A model generated the notes under the pieces. That model saw only the letters and a list, made by a program, of their open reading frames with translations. It did not search any database and was not told where the DNA came from. Shown here one piece after another: positions 8,937 to 14,704 of a stretch of 64,000 nt of DNA. The stretch covers positions 62,001 to 126,000 of the forward strand of contig JAJKHS010000082.1 in assembly GCA_021154885.1 (NCBI GenBank), read 5' to 3'. This stretch comes from Thermoanaerobaculum sp. Lineage in GTDB: Bacteria > Acidobacteriota > Thermoanaerobaculia > Multivoradales > UBA5704. How positions within the stretch are numbered: position 1 is the stretch's first letter; every line of letters starts with the position of its first letter. A program made the translations under genes and the position numbers.

Positions 8937-9461
8937 GTAGACGCCGAGCCGATGTCCGGAGACGCTGGCCTGGAGTCTGTAGACATCGGGCTGGGGGGAT
9001 TCACACCGGCCTGGATCTACAGACGTCGGCCTGGCGTCTGTCGACATCGGACTGGATCTGTAGACGACGGTCTGATGTCTGTAGACATCGGTCTGGGGGG
9101 ATTCACACCGGCCTGGATCTACAGACATCGGCTTGGCGTCCGTAGACATCGGGCTGGATCCAGAGACGACGGTCTGATGTCTGTAGACATCGGTCTGGGG
9201 GGATTCACACCGGCCTGGATCTACAGACGTCGGCTTGGCGTCTGTAGACATCGGGCTGGATCTGGAGACGACGGTCTGATGTCTGTAGACATCGGTCTGG
9301 GGGAATTCACACCAGCCTGGATCTACAGACATCGGACTGGCGTCTGTAGACATCGGGCTGGATCTGGAGACAACGGTCTGGGGGAATTCACAGCAGCCTG
9401 GATCTACAGACATCGGACTGGCGTCAGTAGACAACTCTCTGATGTTTGTCGACGCGGCCTG
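8937..9461. repeat. Tandem array 1: degenerate 20/21-bp units in a 102-bp higher-order repeat
   Basis: The segment between the ClpX-like stop and hicA consists of about 25 degenerate units of 19-21 bp built around TCTGTAGACATCGG. Five units combine into a higher-order repeat of exactly 102 bp whose copies begin at 8976, 9078, 9180 and 9282; a fifth is fused and incomplete. Each copy carries one odd 19-bp member, GGATTCACACCGGCCTGGA. On the minus strand the unit reads TCTCCAGATCCAGCCCGATG, the same family as array 2 at 54778. No conserved protein or spacer structure is present. Confidence 0.9.
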
Positions 9462-9502: not shown

Positions 9503-9679
9503 CTAAAGGCCGAGCTGCTTCCGGATCAGATCACACAGGCTGTTCTTGATCTCGCTGTGTCGGGGGAGGGGCGCTTTCCTGCCGTTGGCGGGATTGGTGT
9601 AGACGTCATGACGGCCCCCATGCCGGTCCAGGACGCAGCCCTCTTGGACCAACTCCCGGATGAAATCGCGTCGCTTCAA
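9503..9679 (-). CDS. hicA: HicA-type mRNA interferase toxin
   Basis: A 58-residue product reads from a TTG at 9679 to a TAG at 9503. It has the compact HicA fold signature: KRRDFIRELVQEGC, then GGRHDVYTNP with the catalytic histidine, and PLPRHSEIKNSLCDLIRKQL. HicA toxins cleave mRNA and are double-stranded-RNA-binding-domain proteins. The TTG overlaps the TGA stop of hicB in a TTGA four-base overlap, so translation is coupled. The order here is antitoxin first. The gene ends about 40 bases from tandem array 1. Confidence 0.85.
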   Translation of the reverse strand: MKRRDFIRELVQEGCVLDRHGGRHDVYTNPANGRKAPLPRHSEIKNSLCDLIRKQLGL

Positions 9680-9882
9680 ACTTCGACCTCGATCTCCTTC
9701 ACCCGGGTCTCGGTCTGGCCGGGGCCGGGCTGGTCCTCAATCAAGAGCTGATAGGCATCCCGGATATTCTCCTCAAGCTCAGTCAACGACTCACCCTGAC
9801 TGAAGACACCCGGAACCTCCTTGAGCCTCCCGACGTACCAGTCGTCGTCAACCCAATACTCAAGGCTGAACAATTTTCGCAT
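9676..9882 (-). CDS. hicB: HicB-family antitoxin
   Basis: The 68-residue protein matches the short HicB-like domain: EYWVDDDWYVGRLKEVPGV, then FSQGESLTELEENIRDAYQ. It should neutralise the HicA encoded downstream by masking its active site. No separate DNA-binding domain is visible after the HicB fold, so operon autoregulation is uncertain. A near-perfect AGGAGGT site sits just before the ATG at 9882. It starts nine bases after the VTT protein stop, so all three may share a transcript. Confidence 0.88.
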   Translation of the reverse strand: MRKLFSLEYWVDDDWYVGRLKEVPGVFSQGESLTELEENIRDAYQLLIEDQPGPGQTETRVKEIEVEV

Positions 9883-9891
9883 AAGGACCTC

Positions 9892-10647
9892 CTAGGGGTT
9901 CAACCCCACTGAGATCTTACCGGATCTCTGCGAGCGCTGCTCCCTCAACTCCAGGTACCGCCGCTTCCGCTTGCGCGCCATCCACACCTGCGGCGCCACG
10001 GTGAGCAGGACGAGCAGGGCGATCACTACTCCGAACTGGACGTAGATCTTGTTGCGCTCCGGCCCGGCGAGGTGAACCAGGGCGGAGGCGAAGTAGGCGA
10101 AGAGGAGGTTGGCGGGAATCAGGCCCAGCACGGTGGTGACCATGAAGAGGCCCGGAGGAATTCCCGTCAGCGCGGCGCAGTAGTTGACCAGCGGATAGGG
10201 GATCGGCAGCAGGCGTATCGCGACGAGGCTCCAGAAGCCGCGCCGGGCGATGGCCCGTTCCACCTTCTTCAGGCGGTTCCCCGCCAGGTGCGCCACGAAG
10301 TCGCGTCCCAGAACGCGGCCCAGGAAGTAGGTCGTGACGCCTCCCAGCCAGGTCCCCAGGAGGTTGAGGAGGAAGCCGGGGATGAATCCGAAGACCATCC
10401 CGCCGGTCAGCATCATGGGCGAAGCCGGCACTCCCAGCGGACAGAGCACGACGTAGGTCGCGATCAGCGCCAGGGGCGCCCACCAGGTCGACCGCAGCCG
10501 GTCGAAGAGAGCCGAGATCTTCTCGACCGTCAGATACTGAGACAGCGGCGTGAAGCGGAGAACGGCGAAGCCGATGACCACGATGGCCACCAGGGCGACG
10601 AAGCGGAACAGGGTGCGGCGGGGCACCCGGGAAGAATCTGAACCCAT
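9892..10647 (-). CDS. TVP38/TMEM64 (VTT domain) inner-membrane protein
   Basis: The 251-residue product has about five to six hydrophobic segments and the VTT/SNARE-associated signature: PLGVPASPMMLTGGMVFG followed by TYFLGRVLGRDF, RLKKVERAI and the RLLPIPYPLVNYCAALTGI re-entrant region. DedA-superfamily proteins of this type are implicated in lipid scrambling and envelope homeostasis; the substrate here is unknown. The C-terminal tail is basic. It lies between the orphan antitoxin and hicB on the minus strand. Confidence 0.85.
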   Translation of the reverse strand: MGSDSSRVPRRTLFRFVALVAIVVIGFAVLRFTPLSQYLTVEKISALFDRLRSTWWAPLALIATYVVLCPLGVPASPMMLTGGMVFGFIPGFLLNLLGTWLGGVTTYFLGRVLGRDFVAHLAGNRLKKVERAIARRGFWSLVAIRLLPIPYPLVNYCAALTGIPPGLFMVTTVLGLIPANLLFAYFASALVHLAGPERNKIYVQFGVVIALLVLLTVAPQVWMARKRKRRYLELREQRSQRSGKISVGLNP

Positions 10648-10672
10648 TCTGTTCTCAGGTAAGCTTCAACGC

Positions 10673-10831
10673 TCAACGATTGGGCCAGAGCTCAGCCTTG
10701 ACCTCTTCCCAGGTCTGCTCGTCGTTGGGATTGCGCTCAAGGTCCGCGAGGCGCTCTTCCAGGATCTGCCTTTGCCAATCAGGGATTGACTCTAATTCGG
10801 TCTCGTCTTCAGGTTCGCTTCCGTAGAGCAT
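10673..10831 (-). CDS. Small addiction-module antitoxin-like protein, apparently without toxin
   Basis: A 52-residue reading frame runs from the ATG at 10831 to the TGA at 10673. The segment SIPDWQRQILEERLADLE and the end TWEEVKAEL resemble the C-terminal toxin-binding part of the TIGR02574-type addiction-module component, normally paired with a RelE/ParE-like toxin. No RelE/ParE-like gene is adjacent: downstream is the VTT gene and upstream the YggX-like gene, five bases away. It is therefore an orphan or a remnant. Its codon use includes TTA and CAA, less GC-rich than its neighbours. Confidence 0.6.
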   Translation of the reverse strand: MLYGSEPEDETELESIPDWQRQILEERLADLERNPNDEQTWEEVKAELWPNR

Positions 10832-10836
10832 TGGAG

Positions 10837-11112
10837 TCACTTGAGCGGCGTCAGCGGAGATTCCCCGCCCGGCTTCGCTTCACCCGGGAACAGAAACTCC
10901 TTCATATGCCTGGTCAGGGTCTCCTGCGCCGCGGGGTCCATGAAGTTGAGGCGCAACTCGTTGATGACCATGACCTCCATCTTCTGCCACTCATTCCAGC
11001 AGTCGAGGCAGGCGCGCTCGCGCACCTCGGCGCCGAGCTTGCCGGGGAGGGGCTGACGGGGGAGGGCGGGGGCCTCGGGGCGGCCGCAGCGGGCGCAATG
11101 GACGGTCACCAT
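10837..11112 (-). CDS. YggX-like Fe(2+)-trafficking protein with two CxxC pairs
   Basis: The 91-residue product aligns with the oxidative damage protection/Fe(II)-trafficking YggX family through PGKLGAEV, WNEWQKMEVMVINELRLNFM and TRHMKEFLF. YggX normally has one N-terminal cysteine; this version has CARC (6-9) and CLDC (35-38), a potential rubredoxin-like or zinc-ribbon metal site. Its ATG overlaps the stop of the 88-residue gene by one base (TGATG), so the two are coupled. The end is a Pro/Gly-rich tail. Function as an iron-sulfur protector is by family analogy. Confidence 0.7.
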   Translation of the reverse strand: MVTVHCARCGRPEAPALPRQPLPGKLGAEVRERACLDCWNEWQKMEVMVINELRLNFMDPAAQETLTRHMKEFLFPGEAKPGGESPLTPLK

Positions 11113-11378
11113 CAGCGCACCTCTCCAGGAAGGATGATGAGGCTGTCCGCGCGCTCCAGGACCTCTTTCGGCACCCGCACCAGGAGCAGCAGGTCGCGCT
11201 CCTCGCGCCGGCCCTTGAGACTCTTCACCACTTCGTCGGGGACGGCCAGGGTGACGTAGGCCGGGCGCTTGGCATTCTGCCGGGCGCTGTCGGTGACCAG
11301 TTCCTCGACCGGCACGATTTCCACCCGCTGCGGGTACTTCTCGAGGGCGTAGCTCAGGGCCTTGAGTGGATTCTCCAT
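11112..11378 (-). CDS. Hypothetical protein coupled to the YggX-like gene
   Basis: I do not recognise this 88-residue protein. It looks like a compact soluble alpha/beta domain: an N-terminal helix (LKALSYALEKYP), then EIVPVEELVTDS, YVTLAVPDEVVKSLKG, and a hydrophobic strand DLLLLVRVPKEVLERADSLI. It has no cysteines, signal peptide or membrane segment. Its stop codon shares one base with the YggX-like start, and it begins nine bases after the UDP-glucuronate decarboxylase stop, which places it in the same minus-strand gene string. Confidence 0.7.
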   Translation of the reverse strand: MENPLKALSYALEKYPQRVEIVPVEELVTDSARQNAKRPAYVTLAVPDEVVKSLKGRREERDLLLLVRVPKEVLERADSLIILPGEVR

Positions 11379-11387
11379 GGCCGGATT

Positions 11388-12344
11388 CTACACGTGCGCC
11401 GCGCGCTGCTCGGCGAGGACGGCGCGGAAGTAGGCGATGGTGCTCTCCAGACCCTTGGCCAGCGGCACCTTCGGCTCCCAGCCCAGGCGCTCGCGGGCCT
11501 GGGTGATATCCGGCTGCCGCGTCTGCGGGTCGTCGACCGGCAGCGGCTTGAAGACGATGGGGCTCGCGCTGCCCACGGCGGCGCGGATGGTCTCGGCGAA
11601 CTCCAGGATGGTCATCTCGTGGGGGTTGCCGATGTTGCACGGCTCGCGCAGGTCGCTCATCAGCAGCCGCCAGATCCCCTCGACGAGGTCGTCGACGTAG
11701 CAGAAGGAGCGGGTCTGCTGGCCGGAGCCGAAGACGGTCATGGGCTCGCCGGTCAAGGCCTGCTGGACGAAGGCGGGCACCACCCGGCCGTCTCGCACCC
11801 GCATGCGCGGCCCGTAGGTATTGAAGATGCGCACGATGCGCACGTCCAGGCCGTGATAGCGGTGATAGGCCATGGTCATCGCCTCGGCGAAGCGCTTGGC
11901 CTCGTCGTAGACGCCGCGCGGCCCGACGGGGTTGACGTTCCCCCAGTAGGTCTCCTTCTGCGGGTGCTCCTTGGGATCGCCGTAGACCTCGGAGGTGGAG
12001 GCGAGGAGGAAGCGCGCCCGCTTCGCCTTGGCCAGGCCCAGGCTGTTGTGGGTGCCGAGCGATCCCACCTTGAGGGTCTGGATGGGCAGCTCCAGGTAGT
12101 CGATGGGCGAGGCGGGAGAGGCGAAGTGGAGGACGAAGTCCACCGGCCCGTCCACCTCGAACGGCTTCGAGACGTCGTGCTGCAGGAATTCGAAGCCGTC
12201 CCGGTCCAGGAGGTGGGCGACGTTCTCCGTCCGCCCGGTCAGCAGGTTGTCGACGCAGACCACCTGGTGCCCTTCGGCGAGGGCCCGCTCGCAGAGGTGG
12301 GAGCCGAGGAAGCCGGCACCGCCGGTGATGACGGCGCGGCTCAT
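11388..12344 (-). CDS. UDP-glucuronate decarboxylase (UDP-xylose synthase type)
   Basis: The 318-residue short-chain dehydrogenase begins with [10 protein letters not shown] and has the catalytic STSEVYGDP and YDEAKRFAE (YxxxK) motifs. [24 protein letters not shown] and [19 protein letters not shown] are diagnostic of UDP-glucuronic acid decarboxylases, which make UDP-xylose. The start codon overlaps the stop of UDP-glucose dehydrogenase by four bases (ATGA), so substrate supply and use are directly coupled. The pathway presumably feeds exopolysaccharide or LPS sugars. Confidence 0.92.
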
Positions 12345-13708
12345 GACCGGCCCCTTGCGGCGCGGACCGGCTCGATCACGGCGGTGGGCCGCGTCTCCGG
12401 GACCCCCTCCGGGCGGCCGATGGAGACGTAGCGGAAGCCGGCGGCGGCCATCTTGTCCGGATCGTAGAGGTTGCGCAGGTCGATGACGAGAGGCTGGCGC
12501 AGCAGCTCGTACAGGCGGTCCAGCTCCAGCTTCCGGAACTGGTTCCACTCGGTGATGATGACCAGGGCGTCGGCCCCTTCGGCGGCCTCATAGGCGTTCT
12601 CGCAGTAGGTGAGGGTGGGGAACAGGGGCTTGCACCCCTCCATGGCCTCCGGGTCGAAGGCCCGCACGGTGGCGCCGCGGTCGAGCAGCCCCTGGACGAT
12701 GGGCAGGGCCGGCGACTCGCGCAGGTCGTCCGTGTTCGGCTTGAAGGAGAGGCCGAGGACGGCGAGGGTCTTGCCGGTGGTCTCGCCCAAGGCGTCCTCG
12801 ATCTTGGCGATCATCCGCTTCTGGGTGGCCTCGTTGACCTCGAGGACGGCCTCGATGATGCGGAACTTGAGACCCTGGTCGCGGGCGATCTGGGCCGCGG
12901 CCCGGGTATCCTTGGGGAAGCAGGAGCCGCCGAAGCCGGGGCCGGCGGAGAGGAACTTCGGGCCGATCCGGTTGTCGAGCCCCATGCCCTTGGACACCAC
13001 CTCGACGTTGGCGCCGCAGGCCTCACAGATCTCGGCCACCTCGTTGATGAACGAGATCTTGGTGGCGAGGAAGCCGTTGGAAGCGTACTTGATGAGCTCG
13101 GCGGTCTCGACGTCGGTCGTGATGAATGGCACGTCCGCGGCGGCGAGCGGCGAGTAGACGTCCATCATCAGCTCGGCGGCCCGGGGATCGCGGGTGCCGA
13201 TGACCACCCGGTCGGGGTGCATGAAGTCCTCGATGGCCGAGCCCTCGCGCAGGAACTCGGGGTTGCTCACCACCGCGAACTTGTGACGGCTCCCCGCGCC
13301 CTCGCGGACGATGGCCTCGATCATCTGGCCGGTGCCGATGGGCACCGTGCTCTTGGTGACGATGATCTTGTAGCCGTTCAGGTGCTGGGCGATGGAGGCG
13401 GCGACCTCGCGGATGAAGGTGAGATCGGCCGAGCCGTCGGACTTCGGCGGCGTGCCCACGGCGATGAAGACGGCCTGGGCCTCCTCGATGGCGGGACCGA
13501 GCTCGGTGGTGAAGCGCAGACGGCCCTCTTCCATGTTCTTCTGGACGAGGGTCTCGAGGCCGGGCTCGTAGATGGGGACCTTGCCCCGGGACAGGGCCTC
13601 CACCTTGGCGCGGTCCTTGTCCACTCCCACCACGTGCATCCCGAAGTCCGCCAGACAGACGCCGGTCACCAGACCGACGTAACCGCTTCCGACGACACAG
13701 ATGTTCAT
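12341..13708 (-). CDS. ugd: UDP-glucose 6-dehydrogenase
   Basis: The enzyme oxidises UDP-glucose to UDP-glucuronate with two NAD+. The 455-residue length is typical. An N-terminal Rossmann domain ([17 protein letters not shown]), the central dimer helix and the catalytic cysteine motif [13 protein letters not shown] (around residue 260) are present, followed by [17 protein letters not shown] and the C-terminal NAD-like domain. It ends in a four-base overlap with the decarboxylase and begins six bases after the epimerase stop. Confidence 0.95.
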
Positions 13709-13714
13709 ATGGGC

Positions 13715-14704
13715 TCAGGCTCGCTGGGAAATGTTTGAGTTTTTGAGGCGCTCGGCGCGCTCGCGATACCAGGAAACGAAACGGCGCAGGCCTTCCCGGA
13801 TGGGCACCTTCGGGGAGTAGCCCAGAATCCGCGCCGCCTTGGATACGTCGGCGTAGGTGATCGGTACGTCCCCGGGTTGTGCTGGAAGATATTCGATCCT
13901 GGGCTCCACGGCAAGCTCCCCGGCGATCCAGTGCACGAGATCGCGGAGAGAGGTGGTGTCCGCGCCGCCCAGGTTGAGGATCTCGAAGCCCGGCGCGAGA
14001 TCGAGCGCCGCCACCAGGCCGTCGACGATGTCGTCGACGAAGGTGTAGTCCCGCCGGCTGCCGCCGTCGCCATACATCGGCACGGTCTGGCCGCGCCAGA
14101 GCAGGTCGGTGAACTTGTGGATGGCCATCTCCGGGCGCTGCCCCGGGCCGTAGACGGTGAAGAAGCGCAGGCAGGCCACCCGGAAGTCATAGAGGTGATG
14201 ATAGTTGTAGCACAGCAGCTCGCCGGCGCGCTTGGTGGTAGCGTAAGGGCTGATGGGCTGGTTGACCTCGTCGGCCTCGGCGAAGGGGACCTTCTCGTTG
14301 ATGCCGTAGACGGAGGAGGAGGAGCCGAAGATGAACGTCTTCGGCCCATGCCGCTTCGCGGCCTCCAGCAGCCGCAGGGTGCCGATGCAGTTGACGTCCT
14401 CATAGAGGATCGGCTCCTGCAGGCTGGGGCGCACCCCGGCCCGCGCCGCGAGATGCACCACGGCGTCGAACCGCCCCTCGGCGTAGAGGCGATCGATCCG
14501 AGGCTCGTCGCGGATGTCCCCCTCGACCAGCCGGTAGTCGGGCCGCGCCAGGAGCGGCGCCACGTTCTCCCGCTTGCGGGCGGGGTCGTAGAAGTCGTTG
14601 AAGTCGTCCAGCACGGTCACCCGGTCGCCCCGGGCGAGCAGTCGTCGGGTCAGGTGCGAGCCGATGAAGCCCGCGCCGCCGGTCACCAGAATGTGCGATG
14701 CCAT
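13715..14704 (-). CDS. NAD-dependent sugar epimerase, UDP-glucuronate 4-epimerase-like
   Basis: The 329-residue extended SDR protein has TGGAGFIGSHLTRRL at the N-terminus, FGSSSSVYG and YATTKRAGE (the Ser and YxxxK catalytic residues), and CLRFFTVYGPGQRPEMAI. The last block is typical of UDP-glucuronate 4-epimerases, which make UDP-galacturonate. Together with ugd and the decarboxylase this gives two alternative fates for UDP-glucuronate. A UDP-glucose 4-epimerase function cannot be excluded. The gene precedes ugd by six bases. Confidence 0.85.
   Translation of the reverse strand: MASHILVTGGAGFIGSHLTRRLLARGDRVTVLDDFNDFYDPARKRENVAPLLARPDYRLVEGDIRDEPRIDRLYAEGRFDAVVHLAARAGVRPSLQEPILYEDVNCIGTLRLLEAAKRHGPKTFIFGSSSSVYGINEKVPFAEADEVNQPISPYATTKRAGELLCYNYHHLYDFRVACLRFFTVYGPGQRPEMAIHKFTDLLWRGQTVPMYGDGGSRRDYTFVDDIVDGLVAALDLAPGFEILNLGGADTTSLRDLVHWIAGELAVEPRIEYLPAQPGDVPITYADVSKAARILGYSPKVPIREGLRRFVSWYRERAERLKNSNISQRA

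Follow-up and report, generated by a model that had tools for sequence, protein, structure and literature searches.

The window, by which we mean the whole stretch of 64,000 nucleotides that was analysed, harbours a gene of the yggX family that is part of a conserved gene cluster on the minus strand. The features of the locus are as follows, the counts referring to the 27 named relatives introduced below and being lower bounds, with some contigs ending within the cluster.

9892-14704, minus strand: conserved cluster of an epimerase gene, a UDP-glucose dehydrogenase-like gene, a uxs-like gene, an 88-aa gene, yggX and a VTT-domain membrane protein gene
9892..10647, minus strand: VTT-domain membrane protein, conserved downstream neighbour (PF09335, 90.8 bits; 25/27 relatives)
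10837..11112, minus strand: yggX-family gene in a four-cysteine form, 91 aa plus stop (PF04362, NF003817 and PDB sequence matches)
10999..11010, minus strand: second cysteine pair, CLDC, residues 35-38, at the N-terminus of helix 36-53
11086..11097, minus strand: first cysteine pair, CARC, residues 6-9, within the N-terminal hairpin (putative zinc knuckle)
11112..11378, minus strand: 88-aa gene directly upstream of yggX, no Pfam or NCBIfam match above cut-off (15/27 relatives)
11388..12548, minus strand: NAD-dependent epimerase (uxs-like), conserved upstream neighbour (PF16363/PF01370; 27/27 relatives at 60% identity or more)

The stop codon of the 88-aa gene overlaps the start of yggX by one base and the two genes are likely to be co-transcribed. 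The 88-aa gene was sought in the loci taken for yggX, and the model of its product was poor (pLDDT 59.7). Further upstream, the relatives carry a UDP-glucose dehydrogenase-like gene (at least 23 of 27) and a further epimerase gene, gal (at least 21 of 27), names that we presume beyond what the Pfam domains say. We likewise take the epimerase at 11388..12548 to be UDP-glucuronate decarboxylase-like, and its true start probably lies inside that open reading frame. The yggX gene is kept in a stable cluster, and the cluster itself reveals no iron function. The canonical yggX context is mutY-yggX-mltC, whereas that in the window consists of nucleotide-sugar genes and the VTT protein; in one group of loci (f3) an mce-like gene is found about 1 kb upstream of yggX instead. 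A sequencing or frame artefact was considered and rejected because the yggX gene is conserved together with its neighbours. Near the cluster there is also a tandem array at 8975-9380, with a 102-base unit in about four copies matching at 93%, and a 68-aa HicB/UPF0150-like antitoxin-type protein is encoded at 9676-9882 on the minus strand, its similarity lying below the Pfam cut-offs.

The 91-aa protein at 10837-11112 is a true member of the YggX family. It scored 70.3 bits against PF04362 (YggX / Iron_traffic) in a Pfam profile search, where the cut-off is 27, and 74.9 bits against NF003817 of NCBIfam, where the cut-off is 74, and it was the one PF04362 match in its own genome. Four PDB chains match it by sequence with E values of 4.4e-9 or better, and these are the canonical YggX structures from E. 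coli (1yhd), Salmonella (1xs8), P. aeruginosa PA5148 (1t07) and B. pseudomallei (2mzy); the fifth PDB match, BTG2 at E 0.98, was taken as chance. The protein matches canonical YggX over its whole length as well as in its predicted fold, and the first cysteine, W42 and N51 are invariant in a 66-row alignment that includes E. coli. Its distinguishing feature is the presence of two CxxC pairs, C6-x-x-C9 and C35-x-x-C38 in the numbering of the window protein, as the first-pass annotation had observed. C6 aligns with the N-terminal cysteine of E. coli YggX and is in this sense the equivalent of Cys-7, but E. coli reads C-L-S-A at the four positions, having L, S and A where the window protein has C9, C35 and C38, so that the earlier description of canonical YggX as a protein with a single N-terminal cysteine was correct. 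To our knowledge the mode of action of YggX is unsettled. Proposed protective and Fe(II) roles are summarised in PMC1360075. A yggX deletion in E. coli did not increase sensitivity to plumbagin (PMC2989944).

Close relatives retain the four cysteines almost throughout. Named genomes were scanned and yielded 28 loci, in records titled Acidobacteria or Acidobacteriota, Thermoanaerobaculia, Holophagales and, in one case (L005), Deltaproteobacteria; a domain fragment (L029) was left out, which gives 27 named relatives with the whole domain. L005 appears to belong to the same phylum as the other relatives, since a phylum search from its genome gave matches at the places of the first survey. All four cysteines were kept in 25 of the 27, and the remaining two (L023 and L025) kept C6 and C35 and were without C9 and C38. 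Loss of the cysteines in close homologues had been named beforehand as the observation that would speak against a metal site, and the opposite was found.

When 297 genomes of the phylum were searched for the family, YggX was found in 127, with one match each, and all 127 genes, the window's own among them, were read. All four cysteines were present in 57 of these, making this the commonest YggX form in the phylum sample, and only the first was present in 54. The two surveys share at least two contigs (L010/L093 and L017/L077), and the counts of 27 and 127 are therefore not independent. Smaller groups depart from both patterns: two genes have C6 and C35 only, five (group f42) are without C6 only, and in four (group f14) an insert shifts the first pair, three having a CxxC and one a CxxxC upstream. 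C6 and C35 without C9 and C38 is the combination of L089/L108, as it is of L023/L025. Five further genes have no cysteine at any of the four columns, which means that even the first YggX cysteine is not universal; in these (L126, L130, L131, L132 and L134) an aspartate replaces the supposedly essential residue. The YggX domain of group f42, without C6 only, is fused to a winged-helix-like N-terminal region, as seen in L090, L092, L096, L153 and L154. The Pfam helix-turn-helix matches of L090 and L092, the two tested, were below cut-off, and the fusion as read from sequence hints at a DNA-linked role.

The four-cysteine pattern persists in rows that are 28-67% identical to the window protein, while cysteine is rare elsewhere (11 of 5591 residues in 67 dereplicated four-cysteine rows), and it is thus not due to chance. 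That this genome alone had acquired a metal site was rejected, the form being common to the relatives and the phylum at large. Four-cysteine YggX is a variant of a known family that occurs across the phylum, and the idea of a gain peculiar to this organism is probably wrong.

For a comparison of the individual columns, 159 rows were thinned at 85% identity to 120, which dropped the five rows without cysteine at the four columns. In the 114 dereplicated rows that have the first cysteine, C9 and C38 were both present in 67, both absent in 47 and mixed in none, a concordance that is inflated by relatedness and reflects only three to four independent changes (three independent pairs on starred branches, four when all branches count, every one agreeing in direction; sign test p 0.25). 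C35 follows less strictly, with four rows keeping C35 without C9. The other six rows (L090, L092, L096, L101, L103 and L104) do not have cysteine in the first column and are outside this count; the alignment at that column is doubtful in all six, and upstream of it there is a CxxC in L101 and L104 and a CxxxC in L103.

An AlphaFold2 model of the window protein, made from the 66-row alignment, reached a pLDDT of 88.7 and a pTM of 0.75. It has short strands near residues 3-4 and 14-16 and helices at 24-33, 36-53 and 60-74, and it places C6 and C9 between the two strands and C35 and C38 where the long helix 36-53 begins. The model superimposes on 1t07 with TM scores of 0.72/0.80 (Z 12.3, rmsd 2.1 over 78 residues) and on 1yhd with Z 12.6 and rmsd 5.5 over 83 residues. 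Solved YggX structures were the only fold matches with E of 0.001 or below (4 of 13 rows) and stood alone above the first unrelated row, at Z 3.2. On the predicted model the four potential ligands are found in the treble-clef placement, one pair in a knuckle and the other at the N-terminus of a helix. The window protein thus resembles treble-clef zinc fingers in having one CxxC near an N-terminal hairpin and the second where the ligand helix is predicted to begin, and differs from them in an extra helix (24-33) that the model sets between hairpin and ligand helix. No zinc-bearing treble clef was recognised among the fold-search rows other than YggX, a search in which small folds are easily missed and in which some of the weak rows were ribosomal chains. 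In rubredoxins and zinc ribbons, by definition, the second CxxC belongs to another beta-hairpin knuckle. In the model the second CxxC is at a helix start, and membership of the window protein in either group is not supported.

This arrangement had been anticipated by a published fold analysis. Kaur and Subramanian 2016 include YggX in a list of treble-clef zinc fingers that they newly recognised and describe its solved homologues as being without zinc (PMC4999995); the site in the window protein is putative. Apart from this fold claim, a four-cysteine YggX was not found described among the titles and abstract openings listed, and the supplement of PMC4999995 may contain it. In PMC4440780 the name YggX occurs in a reference only.

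It is because of that placement in the treble-clef fold (PMC4999995) that we read the four cysteines as zinc ligands. We consider it likely, going by sequence and model, that the window protein is a YggX in which the treble-clef zinc site is intact, and from which the canonical form would derive by loss of ligands. C6 and C9 would make up the knuckle in the hairpin at the N-terminus, C35 and C38 would lie where the long helix starts, and the four would jointly bind a single structural Zn(II), pinning the N-terminus to the helix. The task of YggX itself, for which the protection of Fe-S clusters and the limiting of iron-driven damage have been proposed in Salmonella and E. coli, would be carried out by a surface common to all YggX, comprising W42, N51 and their neighbours. 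The single-cysteine proteins of Pseudomonadota and of Terriglobia-like Acidobacteria would then be derived, three of the four ligands having been lost and C7 kept. The proposal extends from family membership, conservation, the concordance of C9 and C38 and the predicted fold, all observed or computed, to metal binding, zinc as the metal, the direction of change and the function, which we infer. The bound metal centre suggested by the first-pass annotation is accordingly well supported and likely as a site, by its conservation, by the joint presence or absence of the cysteines and by their position in the model, the binding itself being the step that goes beyond these. Relatives that break the four-cysteine set count against the zinc site (five of 127 in f42 and four of 127 in f14).

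Four thiolates are able to take either Fe or Zn, and the same site could bind iron as a rubredoxin-like Fe(Cys)4 centre that carries Fe(II) between partners, a reading that we regard as improbable. It would suit a family in which Cys-7 is reportedly essential in the Salmonella protein, as the title of Gralnick and Downs 2003 has it. It would also suit the Fe(II) role reported for YggX in PMC1360075. However, the second pair at the predicted helix start is the arrangement of a treble clef and not of a rubredoxin, and canonical YggX is without three of the four cysteines, which means that the full site is not the functional site shared by the family. CxxC at a helix start also occurs in thioredoxin-like sites, and the pairs could instead be redox-active dithiols, in a superoxide- or peroxide-sensing switch or a disulphide pair. 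The association of the family with oxidative stress (PMC1360075) agrees with such a role, which nevertheless seems to us very improbable, since C9 and C38, one from each pair, change together in all 114 rows, if through only three or four changes, and two independent redox pairs need not change jointly. The relatives that hold C6 and C35 without C9 and C38 (L023/L025 and L089/L108) also speak against paired dithiols.

With the zinc site as the preferred reading, the direction of change may be considered. A quick, unrooted tree without outgroup was made from 85 columns of the 120 rows, the cysteine columns having been removed. Its sampling covers Acidobacteriota and Pseudomonadota, and L029 (the fragment), L001 (the window's own genome) and L161 (Vibrio) are outside it. 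The plasmid records that came up, among them one complete list of 39, we take to be all from Pseudomonadota; from these, five were retrieved and the cysteines of four were read. Thirty-eight of the 117 inner branches are open. The single-cysteine rows, from Pseudomonadota and from Acidobacteria whose class name, Terriglobia-like, is our own inference, need two changes, one of which is a long-branched Halomonas row. When these rows were constrained to one clade the likelihood was higher than in the free search (p-AU 0.837), which shows that a better tree than the quick one exists, and the single-cysteine rows are compatible with one clade. The midpoint root has four-cysteine rows on either side. 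This pattern, from an unrooted tree of two phyla, favours a loss of the site in canonical YggX, and the published reading of a treble-clef fold whose solved members are without zinc (PMC4999995) also points to loss. The opposite direction, in which the four-cysteine form was gained once in Acidobacteriota and the single-cysteine form is ancestral, is compatible with a zinc site and seems unlikely to us. Changes on an unrooted tree of sequences from Acidobacteriota and Pseudomonadota cannot separate gain from loss, which leaves room for it; the four-cysteine rows flanking the midpoint root, the compatibility of the single-cysteine rows with one clade and a treble-clef fold (PMC4999995), which is usually zinc-bound, weigh against it. 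The earlier suggestion that the cysteines could turn the iron-trafficking protein into a metalloprotein is thus probably the reverse of what took place, the four-cysteine form being the commonest and the fold reading pointing to loss in the canonical proteins.

Returning to the zinc-site reading, we are evenly divided on its wider form, by which canonical YggX is a zinc finger without its former zinc, Acidobacteriota keep the zinc form together with intermediates, and Cys-7 is a reused leftover. The intermediates, if this is true, would be those with two ligands (C6 and C35), those with three ligands fused to the winged-helix-like region and those with none, and iron or redox chemistry would have taken over a residual zinc ligand in the 'functional' Cys-7 of Salmonella. 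The case also cautions against taking a phylum-wide feature for the oddity of one genome. Four-cysteine YggX is ordinary for its phylum and useful as a living intermediate: it offers a probably rigid, putatively metal-bound relative to set against the single-cysteine form in metal identity, structure and Fe-S protection, and in natural intermediates the role of each cysteine may be read from evolution.
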